64,000 nucleotides of DNA from Henriciella sp. (GTDB lineage: Bacteria; Pseudomonadota; Alphaproteobacteria; Caulobacterales; Hyphomonadaceae), in NCBI GenBank assembly GCA_013213785.1, contig JABSPZ010000005.1, positions 124,001 through 188,000 of the forward strand, read 5' to 3'. Numbering within the stretch: the stretch's first letter is position 1; each line of letters starts with the position of its first letter. Positions 21,151 to 41,696 of this stretch are shown here, piece by piece. The notes below the pieces were generated by a model, which was given only the letters and a program-made list of their open reading frames with translations, had not been told where the DNA came from and did no database searches. Made by a program: the position numbers and the translations under genes.

Positions 21151-22251
21151 TCATCGTTTGAGCCAAGGCAGCCATTTCCGCAATGACGGTTTGTCGGCCG
21201 GCTCTTTCTGGATCGGGCCTGAATTCCACAAAGTGACCGCGACTTCAACCGCATCATTGAAGTCCGGGACGACAGACTCGGCTTCTTCGGGATATTGTGA
21301 GAAGTCTTCTGAGAAGAGTGGCGCGGCTCTGTCAGGGAATGCCATTTCGTGCAAGCGCGCATTGGCTTGGTCGAATTGCCGATAGAATGAAATCGCTTGG
21401 TGCTTGGATAGCGGGTAGTATTTTCCAGCAAAAAGTTGCCCGACCCGGCGGACGAGTTCAACACGCTTTTCATCCGTCCGATCACCCGGTGGGTTCGGAT
21501 AAAGATGGTTTAGAGCGTTTATGAACTGAAAGCCCTGGCGGTTCAGTGACTTATTGTAGCGCTGCGAGACGGTGCTCAAGGCCGGCAAGCCAGTCACCGC
21601 ACAAAAGTCAGAAACGAGGCTTTTATTCGGCCAGTGATCCGGATCATAGATGCGCGGGTTCATTGCATCCGGCCCGAAAACATCCGCCCAGCGCGCATAG
21701 ATCTCGTCATAAGCATAGAATTTCGGGGCGCTGTTGAGCGTCTCCAAAATGTTGTCCAGCCGGACTTGGACTGAGGATTTCAAGCGCGTCGATAAGATGG
21801 ATAAGGCAAGTTCGTCCTGGCGCCGGAAATAGACCACGACTTCAAACGTCTCGACCCATCGCTCCAAGAAAGTTCTGAGCGCCGAAATTTCGTGCTCTGG
21901 GTCTAGACGACTTTGAAAATGCTCGGAAGAAATGATCAGTGTGTCCGCATCTTCCACTTGATCGAATTCGTTATCCAGCCTTTGGGTCAGCGTTTCTCGA
22001 AAAGCCTCCTGACTGGCTTTGTCTACTATGCCGAGTTCCCGTCCAATATCTTGTGTCCAAGGCGCGTGATGTACGATGGCCACGAATTCCCATTGTGAGG
22101 AGGGCTCTGAATCTGCCGCGACCGGGTGATAAATGCCGTGCTTGACCAAGGCGTCGCGATTGCTTTTCAAATACTCTTGGATCGCCGTCGTGCCGGTCTT
22201 TTCTGTGCCGATATGGAGGATGCACTTTTTGAACGGTTTTCTGGAAGGCAT
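21151..22251 (-). CDS. Sulfotransferase-like protein (paralogue A)
   Basis: Protein of 366 residues with a PAPS-dependent sulfotransferase-type P-loop at its N-terminus: LHIGTEKTGTTAIQ (residues 12-25), matching the 5'-phosphosulfate loop pattern (K-x-G-T-T). A VVYFRRQDELALS segment near 135 fits the 3'-phosphate-binding R-x7-S motif. The family adds sulfate to a carbohydrate or lipid. The C-terminus is basic (LRKWLPWLKR). It is clearly paralogous to the gene at 23217-24320 over its full length. Transferring phosphate instead, or another nucleotide donor, cannot be excluded. Confidence 0.75.
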   Translation of the reverse strand: MPSRKPFKKCILHIGTEKTGTTAIQEYLKSNRDALVKHGIYHPVAADSEPSSQWEFVAIVHHAPWTQDIGRELGIVDKASQEAFRETLTQRLDNEFDQVEDADTLIISSEHFQSRLDPEHEISALRTFLERWVETFEVVVYFRRQDELALSILSTRLKSSVQVRLDNILETLNSAPKFYAYDEIYARWADVFGPDAMNPRIYDPDHWPNKSLVSDFCAVTGLPALSTVSQRYNKSLNRQGFQFINALNHLYPNPPGDRTDEKRVELVRRVGQLFAGKYYPLSKHQAISFYRQFDQANARLHEMAFPDRAAPLFSEDFSQYPEEAESVVPDFNDAVEVAVTLWNSGPIQKEPADKPSLRKWLPWLKR

Positions 22252-23216: not shown

Positions 23217-24320
23217 TTAACGTTTGAGCCAGGGTAGCCACTTTCGCAAGGCAGATGTTGGGGGCGGCTCTTTTGCAATCGGTCTCGAATTCCACAAGGC
23301 AACGGCGACTTCAACCGCATCATTGAAATCCGGTTCAGTGGGTTCGGCCTCTTCGGGATATTGAGAGAAGTCTTCGAAAAAAAGTGGCGTGGAGTGTTCC
23401 GGAAATGCCATCGTACGCAGACGCTCATTCACGGTATCAAACTGGCGATAGAAGGATATCGCTTGGTCTCGGGATAATGGATAATATTTGCCTGCGAAGA
23501 GCTGGCCGACACGGCGAACAAGTTCTGCTCGCTCCTCATCAGAACGATCACCCGAAGTATTCGGATGAAGATGATTGAGGGCGTTTATGAACTGAAAGCC
23601 CTTTTTGTTGAGCGAGGGATTAAGCTTCGAGTCTTCGGTTTCGAAATGTGGAATTCGGGCGGCGGAACAAAAGTCGTCGATCAGATTTCCGTTTAGCCAC
23701 TTTTGAGGCTCATAAAGGCGCGCCTGCATGGCCTCCTGGCCGAATGCTGTCGCCCAACGCTGAAAGATCTCATCATAGGCATAGTAGCGGGGCGACTGGT
23801 TCAACGTGTGTACAACATCGCCCAGTGGAACTTGGGCGGAGGATTTTAACCGCGTTGACAGAAGCGAGAGTGCGAGTTCGTCTTGTCTGCGAAAATATAC
23901 GATCACTTCAATCTGTTCGACAAAGGGATCCAAGAACGCTTTCAAGTCCAACAGTTCTTTTTGGAGATAAAGTCGACTTTGAAGATGTTCAGAGGAGATC
24001 ACAAGCGTATCCGCGTGATCAATTTCTGCGAATTCCAATTCGAGTTTCTTTTGCAACTCGGCCCGGAACTGGTCTTGGCTCGCTCTGTCAGTGATACCAA
24101 GTTCACGGCCCATATCTTGTTTCCACGGACCGCCATGATGGACGATCGCAGCAAACTCCCATTGTGATAAGTGTTCTGTGTTCGCCGCCAGTGGGAAACA
24201 AACGCCTTGCTCGAGCAGGCGTTCTCGGTGGTGTCGCAGATAATGCTGGATCGCAGTGGTTCCGGTCTTTTCTGTGCCGATATGCAGTACACACCGTTTG
24301 AAAGGTTTTTTGGTCTGCAT
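23217..24320 (-). CDS. Sulfotransferase-like protein (paralogue B)
   Basis: Protein of 367 residues, full-length paralogue of the gene at 21151-22251: the N-terminal P-loop LHIGTEKTGTTAIQ, the VVYFRRQDELALSLLSTRLKSS-type middle (here VIVYFRRQ), a near-identical KGFQFINALNHL block and the LRKWLPWLKR tail are shared, while the region around 190-230 differs most. The intact P-loop and R-R-Q-D-E-L-A-L-S segment argue for an active transferase. Difference in the central part may mean another acceptor position. First gene of the minus-strand group, with an A+T-rich upstream region. Confidence 0.75.
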   Translation of the reverse strand: MQTKKPFKRCVLHIGTEKTGTTAIQHYLRHHRERLLEQGVCFPLAANTEHLSQWEFAAIVHHGGPWKQDMGRELGITDRASQDQFRAELQKKLELEFAEIDHADTLVISSEHLQSRLYLQKELLDLKAFLDPFVEQIEVIVYFRRQDELALSLLSTRLKSSAQVPLGDVVHTLNQSPRYYAYDEIFQRWATAFGQEAMQARLYEPQKWLNGNLIDDFCSAARIPHFETEDSKLNPSLNKKGFQFINALNHLHPNTSGDRSDEERAELVRRVGQLFAGKYYPLSRDQAISFYRQFDTVNERLRTMAFPEHSTPLFFEDFSQYPEEAEPTEPDFNDAVEVAVALWNSRPIAKEPPPTSALRKWLPWLKR

Positions 24321-27926: not shown

Positions 27927-29767
27927 TAGACGCGCTCCATTTCTTGGTCTTTGATCAGGTCGCGCCAATTCGGCTGTCGCTCTGTGAGCCACGCAGCACA
28001 TTGACCGATTTGAATATCATTGAGGCCGAGCTCCACATTCTCAGCCATCAGGGTTCCAGCGCGCATGGTCGGCGTGTAGCGATGGTACCATTCAGACCCA
28101 GAGCTGAGCTCCGTTGCGAAGGTTGGAATACCTTTGTCGAGCGCATTAAACTTGAGCCACATATCATCAGCATACGGAGCGTGCCGCAAAATCTCAGCGG
28201 TATCGATCACCGGGCCGTCCGCGAAGAAGCCCGGTGGATAAAGCACGCCGCCAGCCCCGGTCGGCACCAGATTAAACGATGGTTCCGGGGTTCGCGCTTC
28301 GCGGGTCCAATCTCCATAAGGCGCGATAGACCCGTCTGCGCCAAACTGCATCATATGACAGCGATTGCCGATCACCGTATTGGGGTATTTGCCGTGAGCA
28401 CTGAGCAATCGTTCCATTGAATAAGGCTGATAGATCACATCGTCGTCGACGATCACGTAAGGCATCTGCGCGTCGAAATGCTCAGTATGGGTGAACTTGT
28501 CATACTGATGCCGGGTCGCGTCCAGGAAGTGCAGTTTGAGCCCTGAGGCTTCAAAGGCCCGCAATTGAGAAGGCAACCAGTTCGCATTCGGGATCTCGTC
28601 CCGGCCTAAGAAGAGGTGAATGCTGTCTGGCTTTGCGCTTTGCTTGATCAGCGATCGGATCACGAAATGAAGGGTCGAGATGCGTGCCGGGAACGAGGTC
28701 AGCCCAATTTGATAAGCGGGATACACTTCGCGGGACGCTGGAACTTCGATCCGTGCCATCCGTGTGTCTTCTTGCTCCGCGAAAGTTTTAATCTCGGCTT
28801 TCAGATCTGCTTTAGAGCGACGTTGCTCCGCAATCAGACCCGTGCGTTTGATTTGTGCGTCTAGAAGGCGGTTCTCGGCGTCTTCCCAATCGGTGCCCAA
28901 GACGGACTTACAGGCGGCGCGAAGTGTACGGACTTGTTCAGCAGATAGGGTCGCAGACTGTTTCTGGAACAGTGTGTCGAGCACAGTATAGGCAAGGTGC
29001 GTGCGCACTGTTTCATCGCCGCCGCGTAATAGATCGAGGATCTCGCTCACATGCGTACATTTGCGACGAAACTCGATGATCGCACTCCCAGCCTCTGAAT
29101 TTAGGCCTGAATACTCGCTTGTAAGCGTGTCGAGGATGGAGGTCCGGGTTTTCTCGAGATTGGCTGAAATGCCTGGCTCGGCGCCGCGAATGGCCCAAAC
29201 TTCAGGAACGATTGGGATGTCAGCCCCATTCTCATAAAACCGGCCAAGCTGCAGCGTATCGCTATCCGTTTTGTGCTTGCGGGTATCAAACCGGTTTGCG
29301 CGTAAGAGATCTGTACGGACGAAGAGCGCTTGGTGGCAGAAGCCAAGGCTCGCCATTTTAAACCCTTCGCCGGTTTGCCAAGACGCCCAGACATTATCTC
29401 CAAGTTGTCCCCAGCCCATACAGCCATCATGCTGGCCGTTCTCCAAGAAAGCCTTGGCTCTTGCGAGAACGTCATCGGCAGCGAAAACATCGCCGGAATT
29501 CATGAAGCAAACATATTGGCCCTGGGCGAGGTCTAGCGCGTTATTCATTGCGTCATAGACGCCCGTGTCAGGGTCATGCGTGGACCGATCGACCAAGCCA
29601 GCCTGTTTCCAGAATTCAGTCAGTTCATATGTGCCGTCTGCCGAGTCGCCGTCGACGATGACATATTCAAAGTCGGCGTCTCGCTGGCGAAACACAGACC
29701 GTGCTGTCTTGGTCAATGACCAAGCATGCTTGTATGACACAGTCACGATGGTGAAAAAGGCACTCAC
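27926..29767 (-). CDS. Two-domain glycosyltransferase (GT2 plus second GT-A-like domain)
   Basis: 613 residues. Residues 1-220 are a WcaE-type GT2 domain: FFTIVTVSYKHAWSLTKT, YVIVDGDSADGT, DPDTGVYDAMNNAL and CFMNSGDVF (the usual N-S-G-D in place of DXD in this subgroup). A helical linker (about 230-340) leads to a second GT-A-like domain with IGLTSFPARISTLHFVIRSL near 355 and YVIVDDDVIYQP near 435, a good metal-binding DDD. The protein is therefore likely bifunctional, adding two sugars or alternating. Its start overlaps the sulfotransferase stop by 4 bp (ATGA) and its stop overlaps the next ATG (TAATG). Confidence 0.85.
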   Translation of the reverse strand: MSAFFTIVTVSYKHAWSLTKTARSVFRQRDADFEYVIVDGDSADGTYELTEFWKQAGLVDRSTHDPDTGVYDAMNNALDLAQGQYVCFMNSGDVFAADDVLARAKAFLENGQHDGCMGWGQLGDNVWASWQTGEGFKMASLGFCHQALFVRTDLLRANRFDTRKHKTDSDTLQLGRFYENGADIPIVPEVWAIRGAEPGISANLEKTRTSILDTLTSEYSGLNSEAGSAIIEFRRKCTHVSEILDLLRGGDETVRTHLAYTVLDTLFQKQSATLSAEQVRTLRAACKSVLGTDWEDAENRLLDAQIKRTGLIAEQRRSKADLKAEIKTFAEQEDTRMARIEVPASREVYPAYQIGLTSFPARISTLHFVIRSLIKQSAKPDSIHLFLGRDEIPNANWLPSQLRAFEASGLKLHFLDATRHQYDKFTHTEHFDAQMPYVIVDDDVIYQPYSMERLLSAHGKYPNTVIGNRCHMMQFGADGSIAPYGDWTREARTPEPSFNLVPTGAGGVLYPPGFFADGPVIDTAEILRHAPYADDMWLKFNALDKGIPTFATELSSGSEWYHRYTPTMRAGTLMAENVELGLNDIQIGQCAAWLTERQPNWRDLIKDQEMERV

Positions 29768-30726
29768 GGTCCATTCGCTCCGTACACCGTGCTGTCATAG
29801 TTCAATTTTTTCACAAGTTCGCGGTAGGAACTGCAATTCAATTGAGCTTGGATCCCCTCATCAACCGGTGTGTTTGGACGCGGTTCGATTGTTCCGCTTC
29901 CTCGGCCGCTATCACCTGAAAATTTGAAACTGTGAAAAACCTCCTGGAAATCTTCGAAATAATCGAGCTTCAAATGATCACAAATCGTTTGCATCACCTC
30001 ATTGGGCGCACTGACAAAATCCTCATATCGCACGATCGGAACCCCCGCATAAGCGTCGAGGAAGGATAAGTAGCGCTGACAGTATTCATCAAATGTATTC
30101 GGCGTAAGGTGACCGTCCCACCCCATCTTCACCATCGATTGATAGCTGCGCACTGGGTGCCGGACGGTGATCAGAGATAGAAGCGGCAGATCGGCAGTCT
30201 CTAAGATTCGCTTTAGCGTGAAGCGATTATCTCGCCCCGCACCATACAGGAAATGGCCGTGCGTATGATCCCGCAATACGAGCGTTTTTCCGTTTTGGTC
30301 GAGCGAACTTGCGACCTGCTTAATCGAATTCCCAAACAACTCTGCGACGAGGTCTGGCTCTGGCGGGGAGCCGGACTGGTGCATCAAAGCGACCAAATCG
30401 GTGGGATTGAAACGGTCTAAGTCACCCCGAAATGGGATAGCGCTGAGAGGATCGACCTCATTCAGAACAACTGTATTTCCCATCGAGGCAATGCATTTGG
30501 CGAGCATCGTGCCGCCCGTGCATGAAAAATGATGGATCGTGCGCACTTGGAGAGGGGGCTCTGGCGCTACTTCGCGAAGCTTCTTGATCGTTTCACTGAG
30601 CGTTTGCGCCGCATCATCGTCGGCTTTCAAGCGGCGCGCCTTTCGATTGGGAGCAATACCATCTGCTTCGGCGAGCGCGAGGATTTCGGAGATGACTTGA
30701 GAGAAGTTTGACGTCGAGGCGCGCAT
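29764..30726 (-). CDS. Sulfotransferase family protein
   Basis: 320 residues. Seen: a 5'-phosphosulfate-loop-like segment IHHFSCTGGTMLAKCIASMG near 64-83 and LITVRHPVRSYQSMVKMGW near 180, the 3'-phosphate-binding motif (R-H-P-x-R-S-x-x-S). This is the type often seen in capsule and exopolysaccharide loci, and differs in sequence from the pair at 21-24 kb. Transfers sulfate from PAPS to a hydroxyl of the glycan. It lies 18 bp after the coiled-coil protein gene and overlaps the next gene's start by 4 bp. Confidence 0.82.
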   Translation of the reverse strand: MRASTSNFSQVISEILALAEADGIAPNRKARRLKADDDAAQTLSETIKKLREVAPEPPLQVRTIHHFSCTGGTMLAKCIASMGNTVVLNEVDPLSAIPFRGDLDRFNPTDLVALMHQSGSPPEPDLVAELFGNSIKQVASSLDQNGKTLVLRDHTHGHFLYGAGRDNRFTLKRILETADLPLLSLITVRHPVRSYQSMVKMGWDGHLTPNTFDEYCQRYLSFLDAYAGVPIVRYEDFVSAPNEVMQTICDHLKLDYFEDFQEVFHSFKFSGDSGRGSGTIEPRPNTPVDEGIQAQLNCSSYRELVKKLNYDSTVYGANGP

Positions 30727-30744: not shown

Positions 30745-31611
30745 CTACTCATCGGACCCGAGGGCGGTCTCAGCGCGCGACAAACGCTCTAAAATATCTG
30801 CAACCAGCTTCTCGGTTTTTTTGTTTTTTGCCAGCAAGGCAGAATAGCGCTCTTCCAGTTTCGAGAGGTTGTTTTGAGCGATCTTCCGCCGTTTTTCGGC
30901 GTCGCTATCCTTGCCCTCTCGATAGGCTTCGAGCTCTGCCTCCAGGTCTGTAAGTCTGGCCAGCGCCGCGCCGCAGTTCCGCGCAAATAGAAGGGTTTCC
31001 AAATCTGGGTGGCGTTCTGAGCCGCGCGCGATCAATTCAAACCCGTTGGATCCCAAGACTGAAATTGCCTCCTCGGATGAGGATAATTCGCTCGCCGCAT
31101 CGCCGCTATTGGCGCGCATATAAATCACATCCACATCGCCCAGAAGACCTGTCGAATTCTTGATGATGGGCAGGCCATCCAATCGGTCCAGGATCAGCCA
31201 ATTAGGCTTTGTCTCGAGCTCTTTGGTGAACTCAGGCAAGGTTACTGAAGGGACGCGGGTTTCAGAAATTTGCTCCAGGTTCTTCCAAAGCGGTCTTAAG
31301 TCGTCGGCGCGGATCAATCCTGACTCCCGATCGATACTGTTCTTAAAAACTGAAACCTCGTCTCCGGTCGCGCTGATCACAGCGCTGCGCACCTCTAAAT
31401 CGAGGCTGTCCGTTTGCTCAGAGTCCGAGATTTGCTGAAGAAAGACATCGTCAGAGTGAACCAAAGTGATCGATGGTGCCCCAAGGTTTGAGATATGCTT
31501 CAATCGCTGCGGCATCAATGCGCCAAGTGCCAAGACGGACTTGGGTGGCAAAATCTTGCCCAACAGCGTTTCTGTGTCTGTGATGCTTGGCTGATTCAAC
31601 TCAAACCTCAA
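30745..31611 (-). CDS. Protein with Rossmann-like N-terminal part and C-terminal coiled coil
   Basis: 288 residues, not firmly recognised. The first 205 residues read like a worn-down FkbM-type methyltransferase: a hydrophobic strand SVLALGALMPQRL where motif I would be but without its glycines, VTLPEFTKEL followed by WLILDRLDGLPIIKNS (compare L-K-I-D-V-E-G in FkbM), then VIYMRANSG and VLGSNGFELI. Residues about 215-282 form a charged heptad-like coiled coil (LEAELEAYREGKDSDAEKRR then KLEERYSALLAK). If the SAM site is really lost, a scaffold role is more likely than catalysis. First gene of the minus-strand operon 31611-26226. Confidence 0.7.
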   Translation of the reverse strand: MRFELNQPSITDTETLLGKILPPKSVLALGALMPQRLKHISNLGAPSITLVHSDDVFLQQISDSEQTDSLDLEVRSAVISATGDEVSVFKNSIDRESGLIRADDLRPLWKNLEQISETRVPSVTLPEFTKELETKPNWLILDRLDGLPIIKNSTGLLGDVDVIYMRANSGDAASELSSSEEAISVLGSNGFELIARGSERHPDLETLLFARNCGAALARLTDLEAELEAYREGKDSDAEKRRKIAQNNLSKLEERYSALLAKNKKTEKLVADILERLSRAETALGSDE

Positions 31612-31831: not shown

Positions 31832-33337
31832 ATGACCATTTTGGTGACCTGCGGCATTCATGACGAGTGGTGCACTTTTGCCCAAGGTCGATTTGAGAGT
31901 ATGGGGTTTGGCGCTCCGATCGCGTCTTCGCGATCCCATATGTCCGCCGCTGAGCTGACGGAAAAGATGGCAGCCGTGAGCCGCCCGCGCGGGAAGACCT
32001 CGTACAAAGGCGCTGCGCCCGAGCTCGGTCAGGCCTGGCAGCTTGCGGCCGCTGATCTCATGATTGCGAATGCTGACCAAGAATCTTGGGGATGGGCGCA
32101 TCCGGATAATTTGCGGTTTCTCGAGTTTTGGAAGGCTTTTGAACCAAACTGCCGCTTCGCTTTGATTTACACGTCGCCTGCAGAATACATCGCGCGCGAG
32201 ATTTCGGTAGACGATGTTGAAAACGACGGGCTCGACGAGATCATTACGCGTTGGCGTGATTATCACGAGGAAATGCTTCGCTTTTATCATGCGAATAGCG
32301 ACGTGAGCATGTTGATCAATCTTCACAATTTTGAGGATACAGCGCAATCTGTCGCGACGCTTTTATCAGACCGATTGAACCTGAACGCGACGCGATTGAA
32401 CCAGGCGGAGTACTTGTTTCAATCGGCGCTCATGGACGTCATTGCCGAACGACTGATTGATCAAGAGCTTGAACTCGCGAATCTCTTCTCGGAGCTGGAA
32501 AACTCGGCGGACCTACCAATGTCCCTATCGGCCTATTCGCGGCGCGGATTGGCGAGCAAAGCGCATAAAGAATTGGATGAGAATCTCACCGGATTGGATC
32601 AAGCGCAAAGCAATCTGTTGGATGCACATCGGGAGATTGACCAACTAAATCAGTCACTTGAGGTGGAGCGGCGCGAAAGAGAGGCGCTCGAAGCCGCCGC
32701 TGCTGAAGCGCACGTGCCGCAATTGTTGGAGAAACAGCTCGAGCAGGTGCGTGAAGAACTGCACCTCTATTTCAACAAGTATAACGAGCTGAAGGCGCAA
32801 ATCGCTGCCGGTGAGGTCTCCGGGAGTATTGGGGCATTCGCCAGAACAGCACTGCCAATTGCGTCGACCCTTCAAATTGATCTTAAGTCCTACATTGATG
32901 GCGACGGATGGCATCACGCCGAAGATCAGGGGCGATGGGCCGGTGCGTCCTTGTCGAGCACGCTTCGTTTGCCAGACTTAGAAGCCGGAAAATATACTGT
33001 CAGCGTTCGAATCGTGGACACGATGGCGCTCGATATTTTGCGCGGCATGTCGCTCACTTTGAATGGTGCGCCGCTCAATGCGAACCTCAAGATATTGAGC
33101 GATATGGGCGGACGACTGGCGCCGCTGCGCCGCGCAAAAGCGCATGCGAGCAATATTGAAAAACCGCTTCCGGCAACCCTCTCCGCGACGATTGAGCCAA
33201 TCCAAATCCGCATCCGGGATGACAATATCTTAGGGATTGTGAGTCCCCGCGCGGTGTATCCTCCCTCTGTCCATGGGCACGATGACCGGCTATTGTCCTG
33301 CTGCATCGAGAGTGTGAGCTTTCACCGGGTAGTGTAA
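31832..33337 (+). CDS. Degenerate sulfotransferase-like domain, coiled coil and C-terminal beta domain
   Basis: 501 residues in three parts. Residues 1-195 follow the sulfotransferase layout (TCGIHDEWCTFAQGRFESMGFG, WGWAHPDNLRFLEFW, RFALIYTSPAEYIA, WRDYHEEMLRFY), but the P-loop H-R-S-G-T-S reads H-D-E-W-C-T and the 3'-phosphate Arg of the Y-R-x-P motif is Thr, so PAPS binding is probably lost. Residues about 200-325 form long heptad-rich helices. Residues about 345-501 form a strand-rich domain (YIDGDGWHHAEDQGRWAG, GKYTVSVRIVD, IQIRIRDDN) like a carbohydrate-binding sandwich. Its stop abuts the exporter permease ATG at 33338. I infer a role in chain capping, length control or recognition for export. 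Confidence 0.75.
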   Translation: MTILVTCGIHDEWCTFAQGRFESMGFGAPIASSRSHMSAAELTEKMAAVSRPRGKTSYKGAAPELGQAWQLAAADLMIANADQESWGWAHPDNLRFLEFWKAFEPNCRFALIYTSPAEYIAREISVDDVENDGLDEIITRWRDYHEEMLRFYHANSDVSMLINLHNFEDTAQSVATLLSDRLNLNATRLNQAEYLFQSALMDVIAERLIDQELELANLFSELENSADLPMSLSAYSRRGLASKAHKELDENLTGLDQAQSNLLDAHREIDQLNQSLEVERREREALEAAAAEAHVPQLLEKQLEQVREELHLYFNKYNELKAQIAAGEVSGSIGAFARTALPIASTLQIDLKSYIDGDGWHHAEDQGRWAGASLSSTLRLPDLEAGKYTVSVRIVDTMALDILRGMSLTLNGAPLNANLKILSDMGGRLAPLRRAKAHASNIEKPLPATLSATIEPIQIRIRDDNILGIVSPRAVYPPSVHGHDDRLLSCCIESVSFHRVV

Positions 33338-34189
33338 ATGTTAGATTCCCAGAATTATCGGCAAGTCCAAGTGAAGCAGCAATCGCTAAGCGGCTTTAGC
33401 ATGCAGCCCAAAGCTGCATTCAATGACATTGTCCAAGGTGCTCTGCTTTGGCGCGTGTGGCTGTCTTTGTCCTGGCAAGAGTTTGTCTCAACCTATCGGC
33501 GGTCGCTGATCGGTGTTTTTTGGGTAATGCTGTCCTTCGCGGCCTTTGTGTTCATCAAGTTGACGATCTTTTCGTCACTGCTCGGCGCTGACGATGTGCG
33601 ATACTATGATGCCTATCTGGTCATAGGCTTTTTCATGTGGGTCTACTCACAGCAGGTGATCATGACGGCGCCGGATACGTTTGTTAGCGCCAGCGGTTGG
33701 ATACGAAGCGAGGCGCTGCCGCTTTCCACCTATATTTATAAGATGGTGATGCGGGAGATCTACAATCTCCTTTTCACCTTCGTTGTGGTCATTGTCGCGC
33801 TGATGTACCTTCAATACCCTGTTGATATAAAAGCGCTTTATGCGGTGCCGGCGATTTTATTTTTGCTGCTGAATGCATTCGCGATCAAGTTGCTTCTCGG
33901 AATTATCGGCGCGCGTGTTCGCGATATTTCGCATTTGGTGAAAGCCATCATGCTGCCAATGATGTTCCTGACGCCGATCTTTTGGATGCCGTCACAAATG
34001 CCGAACTTGATGAAAGTTCTTTGGTGGAATCCTTTGTTCCACGCCATCGAGATTTTCCGTGCGCCAATCCTAGATGGCACGTTCCCGACTGAGAGTTGGA
34101 TCTTTATGGGTGTGGTCTTTGCGATCGTATCGGTTTCAGGCTTCCTGCTTTTCTCCCGGCTACGTCAACGAATAGTATTCTGGTTTTAG
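33338..34189 (+). CDS. wzm: ABC-2 type polysaccharide exporter permease
   Basis: 283 residues, six predicted transmembrane helices, of the Wzm/KpsM type that moves finished polysaccharide across the inner membrane. Seen: cytoplasmic N-terminal arm ending SWQEFVSTYRRSLIGVFW, the amphipathic segment typical of this family, then helices near 65-85, 95-115, 140-165, 170-190, 200-225 and 255-275. The C-terminus ends LRQRIVFWF. It directly follows the coiled-coil gene (TAA then ATG) and is 3 bp before the ATPase gene. Confidence 0.92.
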   Translation: MLDSQNYRQVQVKQQSLSGFSMQPKAAFNDIVQGALLWRVWLSLSWQEFVSTYRRSLIGVFWVMLSFAAFVFIKLTIFSSLLGADDVRYYDAYLVIGFFMWVYSQQVIMTAPDTFVSASGWIRSEALPLSTYIYKMVMREIYNLLFTFVVVIVALMYLQYPVDIKALYAVPAILFLLLNAFAIKLLLGIIGARVRDISHLVKAIMLPMMFLTPIFWMPSQMPNLMKVLWWNPLFHAIEIFRAPILDGTFPTESWIFMGVVFAIVSVSGFLLFSRLRQRIVFWF

Positions 34190-34192
34190 GTC

Positions 34193-34939
34193 ATGGCTCA
34201 GATCGACGCGTTTAACCTATCGCTGCATTACCCGCTTACCGGCGGCGCTGACCGCGATATTAATGCTGGCCGTGAACCGGACTCAATCGTGACCGTGGGC
34301 CGCAAGAAATACATTCTGGCGCTGAGAGATGTGACCTTTTCGATCCAAAAAGGTCAGAACATTGGCCTAGTTGGGCGTAACGGATCTGGCAAGTCGACGC
34401 TGCTGCGCGTGTTGGGTGGCATTTACACACCGACCAGCGGGCAGGTGGTCTCCACCGGAAAGATATCGTCGCTCTACGGAATGAATCTCGGCATCCAGCC
34501 CGATGCAACGGGACGAGAAAACATTGTCTTTCGCGGCATTATCAAAGGCTGGTCGCGCGAGGAGTTAAAAGAGAGAATTCCCGAGATCATTGCTTTTAGT
34601 GAGCTCGGTGACTTCATCGACCTTCCGCTACGTACCTACTCCGACGGGATGCGAATGAGGCTTCTATTCGCCATAGCGACATGTTTCGCACCGGAGATCC
34701 TATTGCTCGATGAATGGATCGGGGCGGGCGACGCAAACTTCCAAAAGAAGGCCGGGCAACGGATGAACGATTTGGTGGATGAGGCCGGTATTACGGTCGT
34801 CGCTAGCCACAATCGAAGTCTGATCCAAAATGTCTGTGAGCTGGGAATCTGGCTCGATAAAGGGATCATGCGGGCTTATGGCCCGATTGCGGATGTCTAT
34901 AAGGAAATGGATGCCCATTTCGCGAAGGCGGACGCCTAG
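34193..34939 (+). CDS. wzt: Polysaccharide exporter ATP-binding protein
   Basis: 248 residues, ATPase partner of the permease at 33338. Seen: Walker A GRNGSGKST near 63-71, the family-specific SSLYGMNLGIQPDATGRENI, signature TYSDGMRMRL (in place of LSGGQ, as in Wzt/TagH), Walker B EILLLDEWIGAGD and the switch His in VASHNRS. It stops after the ATPase domain: there is no C-terminal carbohydrate-binding domain as in Wzt of E. coli O9a. The missing domain may be replaced by the beta domain of the protein encoded at 31832, as an inference from context. Confidence 0.92.
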   Translation: MAQIDAFNLSLHYPLTGGADRDINAGREPDSIVTVGRKKYILALRDVTFSIQKGQNIGLVGRNGSGKSTLLRVLGGIYTPTSGQVVSTGKISSLYGMNLGIQPDATGRENIVFRGIIKGWSREELKERIPEIIAFSELGDFIDLPLRTYSDGMRMRLLFAIATCFAPEILLLDEWIGAGDANFQKKAGQRMNDLVDEAGITVVASHNRSLIQNVCELGIWLDKGIMRAYGPIADVYKEMDAHFAKADA

Positions 34940-34949
34940 ATTCGTCTAG
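34936..34949. terminator. UUCG-type hairpin between convergent wzt and the guanylyltransferase gene
   Basis: CTAGA-TTCG-TCTAG, a perfect 5-bp stem closed by a TTCG tetraloop (stable as RNA when read on the plus strand). The wzt stop (34937-34939) and the antisense stop of the convergent gene (34946-34948) are both in its arms. No long T-run follows. A bidirectional end signal is plausible. Confidence 0.35.
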
Positions 34950-37108
34950 ATCAGCGGGGCAAACGCCGTCACCGTGTGGTACATCATACTCGCAGGCACG
35001 GCCTTAGAGACGGGTGCACCGGTTGCATCTACCTCGTCGATAAATCCACCGTCTGGACCTCGATCGAGATAACTTTCAAAGATCCGTTCGAGCAGCACTT
35101 CCGCTTTCGCACGCGTGGCGACGCCCTGGTGAACCATATACGCCCGGAACATCTCCAATTGATGCCATAGTCGGCTGTTTGTATTCATGATCTCGCCATC
35201 CTGGCGAAGCGCATTGAACGCAAAGCTGGTGTCAGGATTCAAACCTGTAGCATCAGCGCGGCGGATGAGGCGACGGCGCCAGCTCAGCGAGTCGTGACCA
35301 GACGCGGTGTCATACAAAGACAAAAGCGTTGCCCATTCATAGTGATGTCCCGGTTCAAACACGGTCTTCGCGCGCGTCTCAACCGTGCTCCAATCCTGAT
35401 TGAAAAACTCAGACATGACGTCTGTCTCAGGATCGAAAAAGTGCTTTTCAAATAGCGTTACGCATTCGCCAGCGCGTTTTAGCGCGAGGCTGTCGCCGGT
35501 CGCATTATGATAGGCCAGCATTGCCTCAAGCATATGCATGTGAGGATTGGAGCGACGCGGCAGCGTTCCTGGGATTTGCTCTTCCCACCCGCCATTCGTC
35601 TGGTCTTTCAAATGGGTTTCCACAAATGCCATTGCATCCTGAGCAATCTTGAGCCCAAGGGCGCTTCCGGTGGCATTGAAAGCGGCCGACCCGGCAAGGA
35701 TAATGAACGCATGATCGTAGAGGTTTCTTCGCAGATCCTTGGCAGCCCCGTCTGCAGCGAAGACATGTATCCAGCCGCCATCTGGAGCCCGCAGCTTGGA
35801 ATCGAGGAATTCGAGACCGCGCTCCGACAAAGACTCAGCAAGGGCCGCATTCGGCCAACCAAGGCTGATCGCTTGCGCAAAACTATAGATCTGCCGCGCT
35901 TGAACGCGCACGCGCCGGTCTGCTTCGAGATCGGGGCGCCCGTCGAGGCCAAGTTGTTCAACAAACCCGCCTCTCTCATCGTCCCAAGCGCTCTCTGACC
36001 AGCGGTCGAACGCGTTCCATAACCAGGCCTGCGCACGCTCTTTCAAACCGGTTGAAAAGCCTAGTTGCGCGCGTTTGCTTTGGACTTCGGTTCCGAGGAT
36101 TTTGACGGCAGCATCGTCGCTGGTTGGCGTAATCATGACATCGGTCTCGGTCGCGATGATCACAAGATTAGAGACGCCGTTCACCGCAACAGTTGGGCCT
36201 TTAGAGCGCACATAGAGGCCTTCAGAGTTCCTCGCGAACACAGGGCCGGACGTGTAGTTCGCGCTGTCATCTTCCGTCAGTAGGCTATGCAGTGCATGAT
36301 AGCCGCCAATATCACTCCATCCCATTTGGACGGGGACGGTCTTCACGTTTTGAGCCTTTTCCATCACGGCATAGTCGATTGAAATACTCGGTGTGGCGGC
36401 GAACGCATCAGGGACGAGGTGGATCGGGTCTTCCTGTTGTGCAGACATTGCTTTGCGAGTGCCGGCCAATACATCGGGCGCGTGTTCGTTCAGCGCCTCT
36501 ATCATGGCGCTGACTTTGAAAAGGAATATGCCTGCATTCCAATAGTATGTGCCAGCTTCCAAGTAGCGCTCGGCTGTCGCCAGATCGGGTTTCTCCACAA
36601 ACTCTTCGACGTTTTTTATGGCGGCTTCGACCCGCTCAGCTTTGATATAGCCATAGCCGGTTGCGGGATGCGATGGCTCAATCCCGAATGTGACAATCGC
36701 GCCCGTCTCCGCTGCCGCTGCTGCAATGGCAATTGCGTCCTGAAAGGCGGGCACGTCGCGGATATCATGATCGGCAGACAGAATCAGAACGAGATCATCT
36801 GGGTCATTCGTCAAACACGCTGCGGCAACGGCGGGCGCGGAGTTTCTGCCAAACGGCTCAAGAATCTTACGCGCGTCGGGCAAGGTCGCCGAGAGCAAAG
36901 CTTCGTGGTGTTTCGAACCGATGATAAGCGGCGCAGAAAACTCCAGATCCGGCCTCGGGACAGAGGAGAGCCGGTGCGCTGTCTCCTCAATCATGCTGCG
37001 GTTCGTCGTCAGTGCTAGGAACTGTTTTGGCATTTCCGGGGTGGAGAGGGGCCACAATCGCGTGCCTGCGCCGCCGCAAAGAATGACGGGATGAATTTTG
37101 TGCTTCAT
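34946..37108 (-). CDS. Mannose-1-phosphate guanylyltransferase fused to AGE-family isomerase
   Basis: About 720 residues. Residues 1-345 are a GDP-mannose pyrophosphorylase: PVILCGGAGTRLWPLS, MPKQF, ILSADHDI and FVEKPDLATAERYL with YYWNAGIFLF. Residues about 350-720 match the N-acylglucosamine 2-epimerase/mannose isomerase (AGE) alpha-barrel: WSESAWDDERGGF, QARQIYSFAQA, DHAFIILAGSA, RRSNPHMHMLEAM and FEPGHHYEWATLL. So the mannose-6-phosphate isomerase half, which in AlgA-type enzymes is a cupin, is here an AGE barrel. Together they would turn fructose-6-phosphate (or mannose) toward GDP-mannose if a phosphomannomutase is present. Last gene of the operon with the epimerase and kdsD. The start at 37108 gives the family N-terminus (M-K-H-K-I-H-P). 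Confidence 0.88.
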   Translation of the reverse strand: MKHKIHPVILCGGAGTRLWPLSTPEMPKQFLALTTNRSMIEETAHRLSSVPRPDLEFSAPLIIGSKHHEALLSATLPDARKILEPFGRNSAPAVAAACLTNDPDDLVLILSADHDIRDVPAFQDAIAIAAAAAETGAIVTFGIEPSHPATGYGYIKAERVEAAIKNVEEFVEKPDLATAERYLEAGTYYWNAGIFLFKVSAMIEALNEHAPDVLAGTRKAMSAQQEDPIHLVPDAFAATPSISIDYAVMEKAQNVKTVPVQMGWSDIGGYHALHSLLTEDDSANYTSGPVFARNSEGLYVRSKGPTVAVNGVSNLVIIATETDVMITPTSDDAAVKILGTEVQSKRAQLGFSTGLKERAQAWLWNAFDRWSESAWDDERGGFVEQLGLDGRPDLEADRRVRVQARQIYSFAQAISLGWPNAALAESLSERGLEFLDSKLRAPDGGWIHVFAADGAAKDLRRNLYDHAFIILAGSAAFNATGSALGLKIAQDAMAFVETHLKDQTNGGWEEQIPGTLPRRSNPHMHMLEAMLAYHNATGDSLALKRAGECVTLFEKHFFDPETDVMSEFFNQDWSTVETRAKTVFEPGHHYEWATLLSLYDTASGHDSLSWRRRLIRRADATGLNPDTSFAFNALRQDGEIMNTNSRLWHQLEMFRAYMVHQGVATRAKAEVLLERIFESYLDRGPDGGFIDEVDATGAPVSKAVPASMMYHTVTAFAPLI

Positions 37109-37195
37109 TTTGATCCCAGCAAGTCTTTTGGTTGCACCAACGCCGATCTCATAGACCAAACCTCTGTAGAATTCATAACTGTTTTTGAAGTGCAG

Positions 37196-38167
37196 CTAAA
37201 CAACGCCGATCGCAAGGCAATCATGCACGTGTAGGAGGCCAATCGGCTCGTTTTCTGCCGACACGATAAACAATGCGGTGATGCGATATTCGCTCAGCAT
37301 GGAAAGCGCTTCCGCGGCCAAGCCGTCATCTCTGATTGTGCGAGGATTGCGGGTCATGATGTCTGTGGCGGTCAGGTTGGCCTTTGAGCCGCTTAAGGCC
37401 CGCCGGATATCCCCATCGGTGATAATGCCGACAAGCTTTGACTGTTCGACCACACCGCAGCAGCCAAAGCCGCCGGCCGTTATCGCCTCAACGACTTCAG
37501 AGAAAGGCGCGTTCGGCGCGCAGAGCGGCATCTCTTTGTGGTGCATTAAGTCAGTCACGCGTTTCAACGCGGCGCCGAGTTTGCCGCCCGGGTGGAAGGT
37601 GTGAAAATCCCTCTGGCTGAAACCTTTCAGCCGCAAAAGCGCCACTGATAATGCGTCGCCCAGGGCGAGCATTTGCGTCGTCGATGTGGTTGGGGCTTTG
37701 GTGATGCCACAGGCTTCTGCGGATTTCGGAACCAAGAGTGCCACATTCGAGGCCTCTGCCAGGGTTGATCCGGCGCCAGAGGTCATGCCGATCAGTGGGA
37801 TATCAAAGCGCCCGCAATAGCCGATAATATCGCCGAGTTCTGGTGTTTCACCCGAATTAGAGAGGGCGAGAACAACGTCCTCGTCGGCAATCATGCCAAG
37901 ATCGCCGTGGCTCGCTTCGCCAGGGTGCACATAGAGGGCGGGCGTTCCTGTTGAGGCCAAGGTTGCCGCGATCTTCCGCGCAACATGGCCGGACTTTCCC
38001 ATGCCCGTTACGATCATACGGCCGGTCGATGCGTTGATTGTATCCACGGCTGCTTGAAAGGCGATTGCGAGGGGCGCCTCATCGCTTTGGAGCGCGTCCG
38101 AGAGCGCGGTGAGGCCCAGCTGTTCTGTTTCGAGAACTTCAAGCGCGGTCAGCCGTGGCGAAGACAT
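37196..38167 (-). CDS. kdsD: Arabinose-5-phosphate isomerase, KpsF/GutQ family
   Basis: About 323 residues. Interconverts ribulose-5-phosphate and arabinose-5-phosphate, the first step of KDO synthesis. Seen: SIS domain (about 40-180) with VTGMGKSGHVARKIAATLASTGTPA and ALSNSGETPEL, then two CBS repeats (about 200-320). The start at 38167 has the ATG following an upstream gap; the open frame reaches 38314 but overlaps the epimerase end. Inside a capsule region KpsF-type enzymes supply KDO dedicated to the capsule. Confidence 0.93.
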   Translation of the reverse strand: MSSPRLTALEVLETEQLGLTALSDALQSDEAPLAIAFQAAVDTINASTGRMIVTGMGKSGHVARKIAATLASTGTPALYVHPGEASHGDLGMIADEDVVLALSNSGETPELGDIIGYCGRFDIPLIGMTSGAGSTLAEASNVALLVPKSAEACGITKAPTTSTTQMLALGDALSVALLRLKGFSQRDFHTFHPGGKLGAALKRVTDLMHHKEMPLCAPNAPFSEVVEAITAGGFGCCGVVEQSKLVGIITDGDIRRALSGSKANLTATDIMTRNPRTIRDDGLAAEALSMLSEYRITALFIVSAENEPIGLLHVHDCLAIGVV

Positions 38168-38207
38168 ATCCAGTGTCCTTAGATGAGGTATTAGCGGTCT
38201 AGAGGGG

Positions 38208-39188
38208 TTAGCAATATTTCGTCCAGTGGTGATTGAACCACTCGGTGAATTGTCCGAGGCCATCTTCGAGACTGACCTTTGGCGAAAAGTCCAACTCTTC
38301 TCTGGCGCGATCAATCACGGCCCAGGTCTTTTTCAGATCGCCTTTTTGCATAGGCTCAAGTTGCTTTTCAGCCTCTCGGCCCACACCTTTTTCCGTCAGA
38401 CGGATGAAATCCATCAGCTGTTCAGGCCGGTCATTTCCGAGATTATAGACGCGGTGCGGAACATCGAGACCGAGGCTGCGTGCAGGACGATCCAAGGCCG
38501 CAATTGTGCCCGCAACAATATCATCGATGAAGGTAAAATCGCGGCTCATCTTGCCATGATTAAACACGCGGATCGGTTCGCCCTTCAATATTTTCTCGGC
38601 GAAAATCCAATAGGCCATGTCTGGCCGGCCCCAGGGGCCGTAAACCGTGAAGAACCGTAATCCGGTCAGCGAGAACCCATAAAGCCGCGCATAGGATTGC
38701 GACATGATCTCATTCGACTTCTTCGTCGCCCCATAGAACGAGACCGGATCGTCGGTTTGGTCGGTCTCGGCGAACGGGATTTTCGTGTTGCCGCCATAAA
38801 CTGAGGATGAGGAGGCGTAGACCATATTCTCGATCTCAAGCTTGCGCGCGAGTTCGAGCATTGCGAAATGCCCTTCGAGATTGGCCTCGGTATAGGCGGC
38901 CGGATTTTGTAGAGAGTAGCGAACACCCGCCTGCGCTGCGAGATGCAGGATTTTCGTCGGACGGCGCCCGTCTAGCGCAAGACGCAACGCGACCGGGGAG
39001 GCGACGTCCACTTCATGAAACGAAAAGTCGCCATGCGCACACAGAGTTGCCAATCGATCCTGCTTGAGCTGAGCTGTGTAATAATGATTGAGATTATCAA
39101 ACCCGATCACGGTTCGGCCTTGCGCGAGTAGGGCTTTCGCTACGTGCGCGCCGATAAAGCCAGCAACTCCTGTGATCAGGATCGTCAT
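38208..39188 (-). CDS. UDP-glucuronate 4-epimerase (GAE/CapI-type SDR)
   Basis: 326-residue extended SDR. Seen: Rossmann ITGVAGFIGAHVAKAL, GFDNLNHYY, HLAAQAGVRYS, YASSSSVYG, catalytic SFYGATKKSNE (Tyr and Lys), and FTVYGPWGRPDMA, the G-P-W-G-R-P-D-M-A string that marks UDP-glucuronate 4-epimerases such as CapI. Product is UDP-galacturonate, so the polymer likely contains uronic acid. Upstream of kdsD by 40 bp in the same operon, and divergent from kdsB with a 233-bp intergenic region. Confidence 0.9.
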   Translation of the reverse strand: MTILITGVAGFIGAHVAKALLAQGRTVIGFDNLNHYYTAQLKQDRLATLCAHGDFSFHEVDVASPVALRLALDGRRPTKILHLAAQAGVRYSLQNPAAYTEANLEGHFAMLELARKLEIENMVYASSSSVYGGNTKIPFAETDQTDDPVSFYGATKKSNEIMSQSYARLYGFSLTGLRFFTVYGPWGRPDMAYWIFAEKILKGEPIRVFNHGKMSRDFTFIDDIVAGTIAALDRPARSLGLDVPHRVYNLGNDRPEQLMDFIRLTEKGVGREAEKQLEPMQKGDLKKTWAVIDRAREELDFSPKVSLEDGLGQFTEWFNHHWTKYC

Positions 39189-39248
39189 CTTAGTCCTTCT
39201 CGGCCCGTCGAAATTGGCCTTTGCGATGTGTCACATAGGCGTTTTGTC

Positions 39249-39262
39249 TGTGTTCGAACACA
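39249..39262. promoter_or_regulatory. 14-bp perfect palindrome between divergent epimerase and kdsB genes
   Basis: TGTGTTCGAACACA, a perfect palindrome in the 233-bp divergent region 39189-39421. Its position suggests an operator that could act on both operons. No regulator gene is adjacent, so the factor is unknown. A 14-bp palindrome can also occur by chance. Confidence 0.35.
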
Positions 39263-39421
39263 TACGGGCTGACATTTGCCTAGCCCTTATGGGATGGGCA
39301 GCCGGATCAAGCAATGACTGGCCTTTCTTTTTGGGGGCTCATGACCGTGACGCTTGGAAATCTGCTGCGTCTTGAGTAGGAGCTACCGAGCAGACTTTTC
39401 TGCGCCAGCCGAGGGTTCTTT

Positions 39422-40240
39422 ATGAAGACGCTGATCGTCATTCCATCCCGCTATGCGTCGACCCGGTTTCCGCAAAAGCCGCTGCATCTGATCGCCGGTC
39501 AGTCCTTGCTGTCCAGAGTGGTGGAGATTGCCGATATTTGCGCAGCTTCGAGCGCGGATATCCAGTATGTTGTGGCAACCGATCACGAGACGATTGAGCA
39601 GCATGCGCAAGAGATCGGCGCGCCCGTCGTAATGACGGACCCAGACTTGCCTTCTGGTACCGACCGCGCCCTTGCCGCGGCCAATGCGGTTGCGCCAGAC
39701 GCTGAATTTGTCGTCAATCTGCAAGGGGACGCCCCGTTCACACCGCCCGATTACATCACCGCGATTATTGAGGCCGGGCGCGAGACCGCGCTGGATGCGG
39801 TGACGCCAACAGTTCAAATGTCCTGGGATGATCTGGATGAGGTGCGCGAACGCAAGAAGCAAACACCATTCTCCGGAACCTCGTGCATTGTGAACGCACA
39901 AGATGAAGCGCTTTGGTTCTCTAAGAACATTCTTCCTGCCATTCGCAAGGAAGACCGGCTCAGAGCTGCGGGACCGCTTTCCCCGGTTTGGCGGCATATC
40001 GGATTATACGGATATAAACGCGCCGCGTTGGAGCGGTTTGTGAGCCTCCCGGAAGGACACTATGAGCGGTTGGAAGGCTTGGAGCAGCTGCGGTTCCTCG
40101 AGAATGGTATGCGGATCCGTGCGGTGAAAGTGCCTGCAAAAAAGAGCGCGATGTGGGGCATCGATACGCCGCAGGATGCTGAACATGCTGAGCAATTGAT
40201 CGCCAAACATGGTGAGCCACTGAAAGCCTATCGGCCATGA
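39422..40240 (+). CDS. kdsB: 3-deoxy-manno-octulosonate (KDO) cytidylyltransferase
   Basis: 272 residues; activates KDO as CMP-KDO. Seen: VIPSRYASTRFPQKPLHLI, YVVATDHETI, SGTDRALAAAN, NLQGDAPF and a C-terminal GIDTPQDAEHAEQL. In most KdsB proteins the metal-site loop reads Q-G-D-E-P; here it is Q-G-D-A-P, which puts it in a variant subgroup, and the protein is about 20 residues longer than E. coli KdsB. A related sugar acid as substrate is possible. The ATG of the following phosphatase gene overlaps its TGA by 4 bp. Confidence 0.9.
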   Translation: MKTLIVIPSRYASTRFPQKPLHLIAGQSLLSRVVEIADICAASSADIQYVVATDHETIEQHAQEIGAPVVMTDPDLPSGTDRALAAANAVAPDAEFVVNLQGDAPFTPPDYITAIIEAGRETALDAVTPTVQMSWDDLDEVRERKKQTPFSGTSCIVNAQDEALWFSKNILPAIRKEDRLRAAGPLSPVWRHIGLYGYKRAALERFVSLPEGHYERLEGLEQLRFLENGMRIRAVKVPAKKSAMWGIDTPQDAEHAEQLIAKHGEPLKAYRP

Positions 40241-40851
40241 CGGAGATCTATATCGTCCGGCATGGGAATACGTTCGACAAAGGCGATACGATCACGCGGG
40301 TTGGCGCGCGAACAGATTTGCCGCTCTCTGCGTCCGGACAAACGCAAGCCGAAGCGCTCGCGCTACACTTCATGGCCTTAGTTCCAGCTGGCTTTGGCAC
40401 TGCCTATTGCAGCGCGCTGCAGCGAACGCGTCAAACGGCGGAGGCCATCCTGGCGGTTCGTGAAACGCGCCCAACTTTGGAGACACTCGAATTCTTGCGT
40501 GAGGTTGATTATGGCGTCGATGAAAACCAGCCAGAAGACGCCGTTATCGCGCGCATCGGCGAGGAGGCTTTGGCCGCTTGGGACCGTGACGCTGTTCCTC
40601 CGCCTGGCTGGGACGTGGACCCCGAAGCGATAAAGGGCGCTTGGCGAAACCTGCTTCATTCGCTTGCGTCGATGGATGCAGACGGACCTGTTCTCATCGT
40701 CACTTCAAACGGTATTGCGAGGTTTGTTCTCGACGCCATCACGGAGTTTGAGATCGAGCCTGAATCAATCAAGCTTAAAACAGGCGCCTATGGGCACCTC
40801 CGCGCGCGTGGCAATGCAGTCACTTTGGTGAGCTGGAATGTGCGTCCCTAG
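40237..40851 (+). CDS. Histidine phosphatase-like protein coupled to kdsB
   Basis: 204 residues, phosphoglycerate-mutase-like fold. Seen: the RHG motif with the nucleophile His (YIVRHGNT, residues 5-12), RTRQTAEA near 63 and LEFLREVDYG. At the place of the second catalytic His (usual S-H-G), the sequence reads TSNGIARF, so that His is Asn. Its ATG overlaps the kdsB stop (ATGA). With no HAD-type kdsC in the window, it could be the missing KDO-8-phosphate phosphatase or could have lost phosphatase activity. It ends sharing CTAG with the convergent kdsA. Confidence 0.85.
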   Translation: MTEIYIVRHGNTFDKGDTITRVGARTDLPLSASGQTQAEALALHFMALVPAGFGTAYCSALQRTRQTAEAILAVRETRPTLETLEFLREVDYGVDENQPEDAVIARIGEEALAAWDRDAVPPPGWDVDPEAIKGAWRNLLHSLASMDADGPVLIVTSNGIARFVLDAITEFEIEPESIKLKTGAYGHLRARGNAVTLVSWNVRP

Positions 40852-41696
40852 TTCACGATCTCGTGGATGGCTTTCAGCTCTTTAAGCAGTGGTTCTGCCG
40901 CGGTGAGCGGCAAACAACTCGGGCCGTCGCAAAGCGCTTTGTCTGGATCCGTGTGGAATTCCAGGAAAATGCCATCTGCGCCAGCCGCGATCGCTGATTT
41001 TGCAATAATGCTGACGCCCTCGCGGCGGCCGCCGGTAGACGCGCCTGCCGTGCGCGGGTCGGCACCTGGGAGCTGAACCGCATGTGTCGCGTCAATCGTA
41101 ACCGGGCATCCGAGCGCCTGCATCTGCTGAATGCCAAGCATGTCGACCACGAGATTATTGTACCCAAAACTGGACCCGCGCTCACATAATATGACGCGAT
41201 CCCCAGGCAGCACTTCGCCGATCTTAGAGACAATGTTCTTCGTGTCCCATGGGGCGAGGAATTGCGCTTTCTTGACCTGGATCACACTGCCCGCATCGGC
41301 TGCCGCTTTCGCGGTCGCGACGACCAAATCCGTTTGGCGGCAAAGGAAGGCCGGGATTTGAACAATGTCTGCAACTTTGGCGACGGCTTCGGCCTGGAAG
41401 GGCTCATGAAGGTCGGTACAAACACCGACACCAAGCTCTTGCTTAATCTCGGCCATCATCGGCACGCCCTTTTCAAAACCGGGACCGCGATAAGACGTGA
41501 TCGAGCTCCGGTTGGCTTTGTCAAAGCTCGCTTTGAATATGTAAGGCAGGCCAAGGCGCTCACAGATCGCTTTCAACTCGCGGCCAACGGTGAGCGCGAG
41601 GTCCAGATCCTCAAGCACATTCAGGCCTGCAATAACCGCGAGCGGCGCGCCGGTGCCGATTTTCCAGTTTTGAGAAGGAACAGTGACCAGGCTCAT
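40848..41696 (-). CDS. kdsA: KDO-8-phosphate synthase
   Basis: 282 residues; condenses arabinose-5-phosphate with phosphoenolpyruvate. Seen: PLAVIAGLNVLED, YIFKASFDKANRSS, GVCTDLHEP, CERGSSFGYNNLVVDM, DATHAVQLPG and a C-terminal FLEFHTDPDKALCDGP. The Asn at N-K-x-x-R-S (K-A-N-R-S-S) and Asn in S-F-G-Y-N-N fit the metal-independent class more than the Cys-containing class. Convergent to the kdsB operon and divergent from ahcY. Confidence 0.95.
   Translation of the reverse strand: MSLVTVPSQNWKIGTGAPLAVIAGLNVLEDLDLALTVGRELKAICERLGLPYIFKASFDKANRSSITSYRGPGFEKGVPMMAEIKQELGVGVCTDLHEPFQAEAVAKVADIVQIPAFLCRQTDLVVATAKAAADAGSVIQVKKAQFLAPWDTKNIVSKIGEVLPGDRVILCERGSSFGYNNLVVDMLGIQQMQALGCPVTIDATHAVQLPGADPRTAGASTGGRREGVSIIAKSAIAAGADGIFLEFHTDPDKALCDGPSCLPLTAAEPLLKELKAIHEIVN

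Follow-up and report, generated by a model that had tools for sequence, protein, structure and literature searches.

In the ABC-transporter polysaccharide pathways described for Klebsiella and E. coli, an active terminator is carried on a coiled-coil ruler and the CBM of Wzt reads the cap (PMC11231755, PMC5082667, PMC10629545). Two such proteins come close to the gene analysed in this work. WbdD of E. coli O9a, a kinase-methyltransferase, has an N-terminal enzyme-type head followed by a coil (PMC5082667, PMC11231755). ORF6 of Klebsiella pneumoniae O7 combines a methyltransferase-kinase, an Ig-like CBM, a coiled coil and two GT modules; according to PMC11231755, no terminator besides this ORF6 had an identified CBM.

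We have analysed a 64,000-nucleotide stretch of a Henriciella sp. genome (the window), in which gene X (31832–33337, forward strand), a single open frame of 501 aa, encodes a degenerate sulfotransferase head followed by a coil and a C-terminal domain. X shares with WbdD the enzyme-type head at the N terminus, the coil and the ABC-transporter pathway; in X, by contrast, the donor site of the head is lost, the sulfotransferase (ST) has a gene of its own, X is accompanied by another coil protein (B), and a C-terminal domain takes the place of the membrane helix and polymerase site of WbdD. What X has in common with O7 ORF6, a coil together with a possible glycan-binding domain on a single polysaccharide protein, is a likeness of layout only; ORF6 is an active terminator with polymerase modules, and its CBM precedes the coil (PMC11231755). 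The initial annotation had claimed that this layout has no described parallel, which is nearly right; the exception is again O7 ORF6, a coiled-coil terminator with an Ig-like CBM, albeit with active heads (PMC11231755). In our literature search no paper was found on an ST/coiled-coil/Wzt polysaccharide system, on a pseudo-sulfotransferase or on an FkbM–ST–coil set (a 2019 survey of such systems was not covered), and the combination of sulfotransferase, O-antigen ABC transporter and chain termination surfaced one Aeromonas paper.

In the known ABC-pathway terminators the active capping enzyme is thus part of a coil protein and the cap is read by Wzt, while here the tasks are apparently split between coil proteins with altered heads, a separate enzyme and an exporter-linked domain situated on the scaffold. 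Judged from its sequence, X is a conserved, probably non-catalytic member of an X–B–ST set, with a C-terminal domain that ties it to ABC export.

The exporter genes follow X on the same strand. X ends directly at the start of wzm (33338–34189), an ABC-2 permease gene (PF01061, E 2.7e-14; NF050109, E 3.5e-43, below its cut-off), with a gap of 0 bp, and 3 bp after wzm comes wzt (34193–34939), encoding an ATPase of 248 aa (PF00005; NF050108, E 1.7e-70, below its cut-off). The direct abutment of X on the exporter that had been described for this locus was thus borne out. The partners lie on the reverse strand: the gene for B, 288 aa with an FkbM-related head and a coil (30745–31611; its TTG start is uncertain), and the gene for the intact ST, 320 aa (29764–30726). 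The closest named relative comes from a Henriciella metagenome assembly, from the very contig of genome G024 of the same genus.

The X head comprises residues 1–232 (31832–32527, forward strand). It had been said to follow sulfotransferase layout, and profile comparison agrees: the head is homologous along its length to four small intact STs of the bacterial GMHRSGTS type (Sulfotransfer_3-like; L027, L028). A profile of six X heads aligned with these four proteins in global hhalign with 98.0% probability (E 1.1e-12, 213 columns) and in local mode with 96.8% (E 2.5e-10) or, when query and template were swapped, 97.4% (E 1.6e-11), while 16 other local alignments reached at most 1.9%. The intact GMHRSGTS group in turn matched the PF13469 set (93%, E 2.9e-7) about as the neighbouring ST did as a positive control (93%, E 3.9e-7). 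Direct hhalign matches of the X head to the other ST groups were low (PF13469 set 1.3%, neighbouring ST 0.4%, IGTEKTGT group 0.3%), so that its link to PF13469 is an indirect one, through the intact GMHRSGTS group. The PF13469 set used in hhalign consisted of 17 of 30 loci, those without a stop in frame, cut by fixed offsets; the head–ST and B–FkbM comparisons, run first globally, were repeated locally with the same verdicts (for B–FkbM, with the 14-member set described below) and with low controls. Pfam and NCBIfam gave no ST family match to X, and Pfam gave none to five heads or to the E. coli relative introduced below. Searches of solved structures with X, the head profile, the C-terminal domain profile and an intact relative produced no meaningful match, and AlphaFold models computed with one relative (L011) were unusable (mean pLDDT 37.7 for full-length X and 37.1 for the C-terminal domain).

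The initial annotation had also noted the loss of the PAPS loop and of an arginine, and both losses are plain in the alignment: X reads GIHDEWCT where the intact enzymes have GMHRSGTS, and Y-T-S-P where they have F-R-H-P. Seven full heads were compared, six aligned (window, L013, L014, L015, L016 and L025) and one, from E. coli (L114), by eye. None of the seven has an intact RSGT loop, and the loop Thr, the KDPR Lys and the RHP Arg-His are gone in all seven, whose triplets at the R-H-P position read TSP, TSP, GSP, GSP, SSP, SSP and DTP. We take the RSGT loop, the KDPR Lys and the RHP Arg-His to be the residues that bind the donor PAPS (the 5′-phosphosulfate loop and the Arg of the 3′-phosphate). 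Remnants of the loop are a Ser-Gly in L025 and L114 and an Arg in L015. Four invariant Trp of the intact ST set are also present throughout the X heads, which have acquired a new invariant residue, W88. Homology to sulfotransferases and loss of the donor-site residues are both evident in the head sequences; that the head is catalytically inactive is what these losses make probable.

Purifying selection on the head is strong. Against a relative at 87%, pN is 0.071 and pS 0.724 in the head, with 0.050 and 0.594 in the C-terminal domain, and the head pN lies below those of the intact ST (0.138) and of B (0.235); since synonymous sites are near saturation, the pN/pS ratios are indicative only. A decaying gene is ruled out by these values. 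The constraint, the new W88 and the loop remnants in L025, L114 and L015 would also suit a head that is still an enzyme with changed chemistry, using another donor or binding the usual one differently, and re-purposed folds are known in general. We consider this quite improbable, as the head loop is not conserved between relatives (GIHDEWCT, AVHEDWCA, GLQRTWCE, SMSQGDCL, GVQNSGYQ, GHPSSGYK), unlike a catalytic site. In a search of 398 genomes of the order at E 1e-4, the head profile matched 12, with five full heads (E < 1e-90) and seven weak matches. Five of the six readable weak matches have an intact GMHRSGTS loop, the sixth (L108) is a coil-type protein that carries part of the head, and the seventh locus (L109), which has no readable frame, was left out.

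The middle of X, residues 230–348 (32519–32875, forward strand), had been described as a coiled coil of about 125 residues. A helical middle is indeed there, within a region of 119 residues, but not as one unbroken coil, because a proline (residue 296) lies inside the helical part (approximately 236–326). Heptad periodicity was significant for the window protein (p 0.0045) but not for L015, one of six relatives (p 0.17), in a measure that is unspecific since head stretches scored too; residues 242–324 gave weak matches to coiled-coil families (E 0.011–0.051). A motif of the type QL.QV.EEL..YF.KY ends the coil (residues 302–317), with Q302, Q305, V306, E309, L310, Y313 and Y317 invariant in five sequences; searched by itself in 190 genomes of the class, the coil motif matched the window's own genome only. 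The middle of X is thus probably an interrupted coiled coil of ∼90 residues inside the 119-residue region.

The C-terminal domain (residues 346–501; 32867–33334, forward strand) carries the motif GW(H)..E..GRW.G ... D.R.L, of which G, W-H, E, G-R-W, G and D.R.L are invariant in six sequences. The initial annotation had called this end strand-rich, which its low-confidence model (mean pLDDT 37.1) did not confirm. Its profile found seven of the 398 genomes of the order, and a class-wide draw of 385 genomes yielded the window's own only. The domain is a separable module. In G023 the head joined to it resembles MptE weakly (E 5e-5, under the Pfam cut-off) and has hydrophobic stretches that by eye seem to span the membrane, and in G191 the domain stands alone; in both genomes wzm/wzt lie next to it, and the 20 kb read showed neither an X head nor a B or ST belonging to the set. 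Its presence at the exporter in two genomes without the ST-type head fits an export-linked module and, together with the full-length X loci, indicates that the ST-type head is accompanied by B and ST, and the C-terminal domain in most cases by the exporter.

Of two candidate identities of the C-terminal domain, one was not supported and the other was rejected. DUF7024 rested on one weak match in one relative (E 0.17), with none in 21 related genomes. A 191-aa protein encoded directly upstream of wzm in another genus (three genomes; L038:857–1432, forward strand; also L036 and L037), which has a lipoprotein-like signal by eye and no family match, was rejected as a distant form of the domain (hhalign 0.2% global, 1.0% local).

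The role proposed for the C-terminal domain of X, recognising finished chains for their export, would be that of Wzt_C (PF14524). The domain differs in that it is situated on a protein separate from Wzt, and neither X nor any of the 19 genomes searched, the window's own included, has a PF14524 match. Wzt of the window, at 248 aa and with no PF14524 match, does lack the C-terminal domain, as the initial annotation had it; the use of this lack as evidence for the role of X did not survive. Loci were read for 30 of the 46 wzm matches in the family; two of them gave no readable wzt, and of the remaining 28 wzt genes 26 are at most 312 aa long, while X or its C-terminal domain occurs in 6 of 105 family genomes. 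A Wzt without the C-terminal domain is therefore usual in the family and not diagnostic.

The intact ST, which has PF13469 at 27.5 bits (cut-off 27), retains a CTGGT loop and TVRHP. In nine aligned relatives the C.GGT loop, LR.H and TVR.P-type motifs are likewise retained, with variation in single rows (CSGGT, TIRDP). For B, Pfam shows no PF05050 or other standard enzyme family in the window protein, and the best PF05050 score among four Roseobacter B proteins stays under the cut-off (E 0.0065, 17 bits against 22.7). B heads as a set are nevertheless related to FkbM methyltransferases (Methyltransf_21, PF05050), from which B differs by the coil that follows the head. In hhalign, 14 B heads matched a group of three FkbM proteins, one of them the G624 fusion described below, with 84% (E 7.5e-6) locally and 85% (E 6.6e-7) globally, and matched two other FkbM proteins with 8% and 2%, respectively. 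The six B heads of the window's order alone reach 4% against the three, so that the FkbM origin of the window's B depends on the wider 14-member set. The usual FkbM motifs are altered in the B heads.

Full-length X is present in six genomes (G000, G024, G018, G020, G055 and G115). The same gene order had been suggested as something to look for elsewhere, and it recurs: B and an intact ST stand beside full-length X in all six genomes (the window's own included), and wzm/wzt lie directly downstream of X in five. In the sixth, G115, the X–B–ST set is 23–25 kb from wzt on the same contig. The zero-gap junction of X and wzm is found in the window and its closest relative, and X is absent from most wzm/wzt loci of the family.

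In the class-wide alignment search with the ST (E 1e-30), 3 of 337 genomes matched, one of them the window's own; a plasmid search with the ST protein gave eight records with nine places, of which the best place per record was read. With the six genomes that have full-length X and the other two genomes of the class search (G461, G624), these eight plasmids make up 16 ST loci, in 14 of which B is directly upstream of the ST. The exceptions are G461, with a family ST (L122:8998–9804) and no adjacent B, and G624, which encodes an 828-aa fusion (L123:8731–11217, reverse strand) of an intact FkbM domain (PF05050, E 1.5e-15) and an ST (PF13469, E 4e-9); a second family ST of G624 (L123:6853–7812) is also without B.

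Six Roseobacter plasmids encode a coil protein with a remnant of the ST head, here called A; on five of them its gene is upstream of B, and on one it is divergent. By the head profile, A was detected in L118 (3e-11), L126 (2e-5) and L116 (7e-4) and marginally in L117 (0.018); in L115 (0.17) and L125 (0.47) the profile was not significant and A was assigned by position, and in L127 and L128 no A was seen at the loci read. B was detected by profile weakly in L118 (E 0.011), in L127 (6e-4) and in the remaining plasmids at 2e-6 or better, while in L116 (0.39) the profile was not significant and B was assigned by position and eye; these values refer to small sets. The C-terminal domain of X is absent from all plasmid A proteins, and much of their ST head is missing.

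A distant relative of the pair was found on the E. coli plasmid pAL.H8 (L114), a mobilizable plasmid from pond water, where the X head matches a 587-aa coil-type protein with E 9e-43 and a B-type protein follows directly (E 7e-41; both in small sets). The genes before the pair carry the annotations polysaccharide export, ABC permease, ATPase and sugar transporter, and no ST is annotated in the 17 kb listed. A 10-kb stretch of the plasmid had matches in 33 of 5,426 E. coli genomes and was covered to at least 80% in this one only. RefSeq names the X-type protein ‘DUF8374 domain-containing’; a Pfam search of the protein gave no match, and our literature search found no paper naming DUF8374. The C-terminal tail of this protein resembles the N-terminal part of NF058596 (O-methyl phosphoramidate transferase; E 1.5e-8, far below the cut-off).

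The lengths of the coils vary widely across loci, from 101 to 358 residues in A and from 27 to 435 in B, with approximately 34 in the window's B. The coil lengths of X or A and of B covary over 13 pairs (Spearman 0.63, p 0.020) and over the 11 pairs left after removal of the near-duplicates L013 and L125 (Spearman 0.75, p 0.008), whereas X and B of the first six genomes alone give 0.64 with p 0.17. The coil boundaries were set by hand, position alone identified two of the A proteins and the statistics ignore shared ancestry, so the covariation is no more than suggestive.

Such covariation would fit a WbdD-like terminator and ruler split over several proteins, in which the length of an X–B rod sets the length of the chain, ST adds sulfate as the cap, the C-terminal domain of X replaces that of Wzt, and capped chains only are exported. 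The exporter linkage of the C-terminal domain speaks for this reading as well, as does the fact that the Klebsiella terminators studied sit in the coiled-coil ruler protein (PMC11231755, PMC5082667). Against it, no standard active terminator head is recognised on X or B, the window's B has a very short coil and the coil of X is broken by a proline, and the terminal place of the sulfate is an assumption of the reading itself. We regard it as possible but rather unlikely. The initial annotation had proposed that one protein combines a dead head, a ruler and an export domain; the head, the coil and the separable C-terminal domain beside the exporter hold, but the single protein does not, as B and ST accompany X. 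The putative ruler, if there is one, is probably a joint assembly of X and B.

Another reading is that X is a scaffold for internal sulfation only, of side chains or repeats, and that its adjacency to the exporter reflects operon history and not handover of the chain. The position of the X–B–ST set away from the exporter in G115 and the Roseobacter sets devoid of the C-terminal domain are in line with this, and so are two further ST-like genes in the window. These two genes (21151–22251 and 23217–24320, reverse strand) are similar to each other, have a IGTEKTGTTAIQ loop and were recognised as ST by eye, with no Pfam ST match; together with the ST at 29764 they hint at a heavily sulfated polymer. 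A purely historical adjacency, however, fits poorly with a C-terminal domain that stays by wzm/wzt even without the set and with the zero-gap coupling of X to wzm in the window and its closest relative, and we think this reading unlikely.

The reading that we prefer, and to which we give close to an even chance, is that X works in the cytoplasm as a scaffold without catalysis of its own and, by holding ST, links sulfation with export. Its head would have kept the sulfotransferase fold and lost the usual binding of the sulfate donor, and would probably bind the glycan acceptor or neighbouring proteins. The coil of X would pair with the coil of B, whose head would be an altered FkbM-type domain, and the resulting X–B rod would keep the intact ST at the inner membrane, close to the chain being extended. 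There ST would add sulfate, in the simplest case to the chain end or close to it. In the subset linked to the exporter, X would then use its C-terminal domain to take the finished chain to Wzm/Wzt, a job that elsewhere belongs to the C-terminal domain of Wzt. From sequence we infer the inactivity of the head, the formation of the complex, the pairing of the X and B coils, the site of sulfation, the handover to the exporter and any control of chain length. More specific, and in our estimate unlikely, is a three-protein machine, absent from the papers that our literature search found, in which two coil proteins with altered heads (sulfotransferase-type and FkbM-type) form a rod; the rod would fix the distance at which one active ST sulfates a growing surface polysaccharide, and the finished chain would reach the ABC exporter by way of a C-terminal domain borne by one of the two instead of by Wzt.

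If the scaffold reading is true, sulfation would be a further chain modification coupled to export, and the system would allow scaffold, catalysis and export recognition to be taken away separately. It would also suggest a role for the recurring ‘hypothetical’ genes of marine Roseobacter plasmids.

The surroundings of the set offer some further observations. In G115, the X–B–ST set is adjoined by a probable Cas9 gene (L025:11533–14955, forward strand), a product presumed from its first residues. In the window, the exporter genes are followed on the reverse strand by a gene (34946–37159) for a nucleotidyltransferase fused with a GlcNAc 2-epimerase-type domain; we take the nucleotidyltransferase part to be mannose-1-phosphate guanylyltransferase-like. 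Genes of KpsF/KdsD, KdsB and DAHP-synthase (PF00793) types come next (37196–41696), in an order shared with L013, L014 and L017, the DAHP-synthase-type gene presumably being KdsA. The Kds-type genes beside the exporter suggest a surface glycan that contains Kdo.
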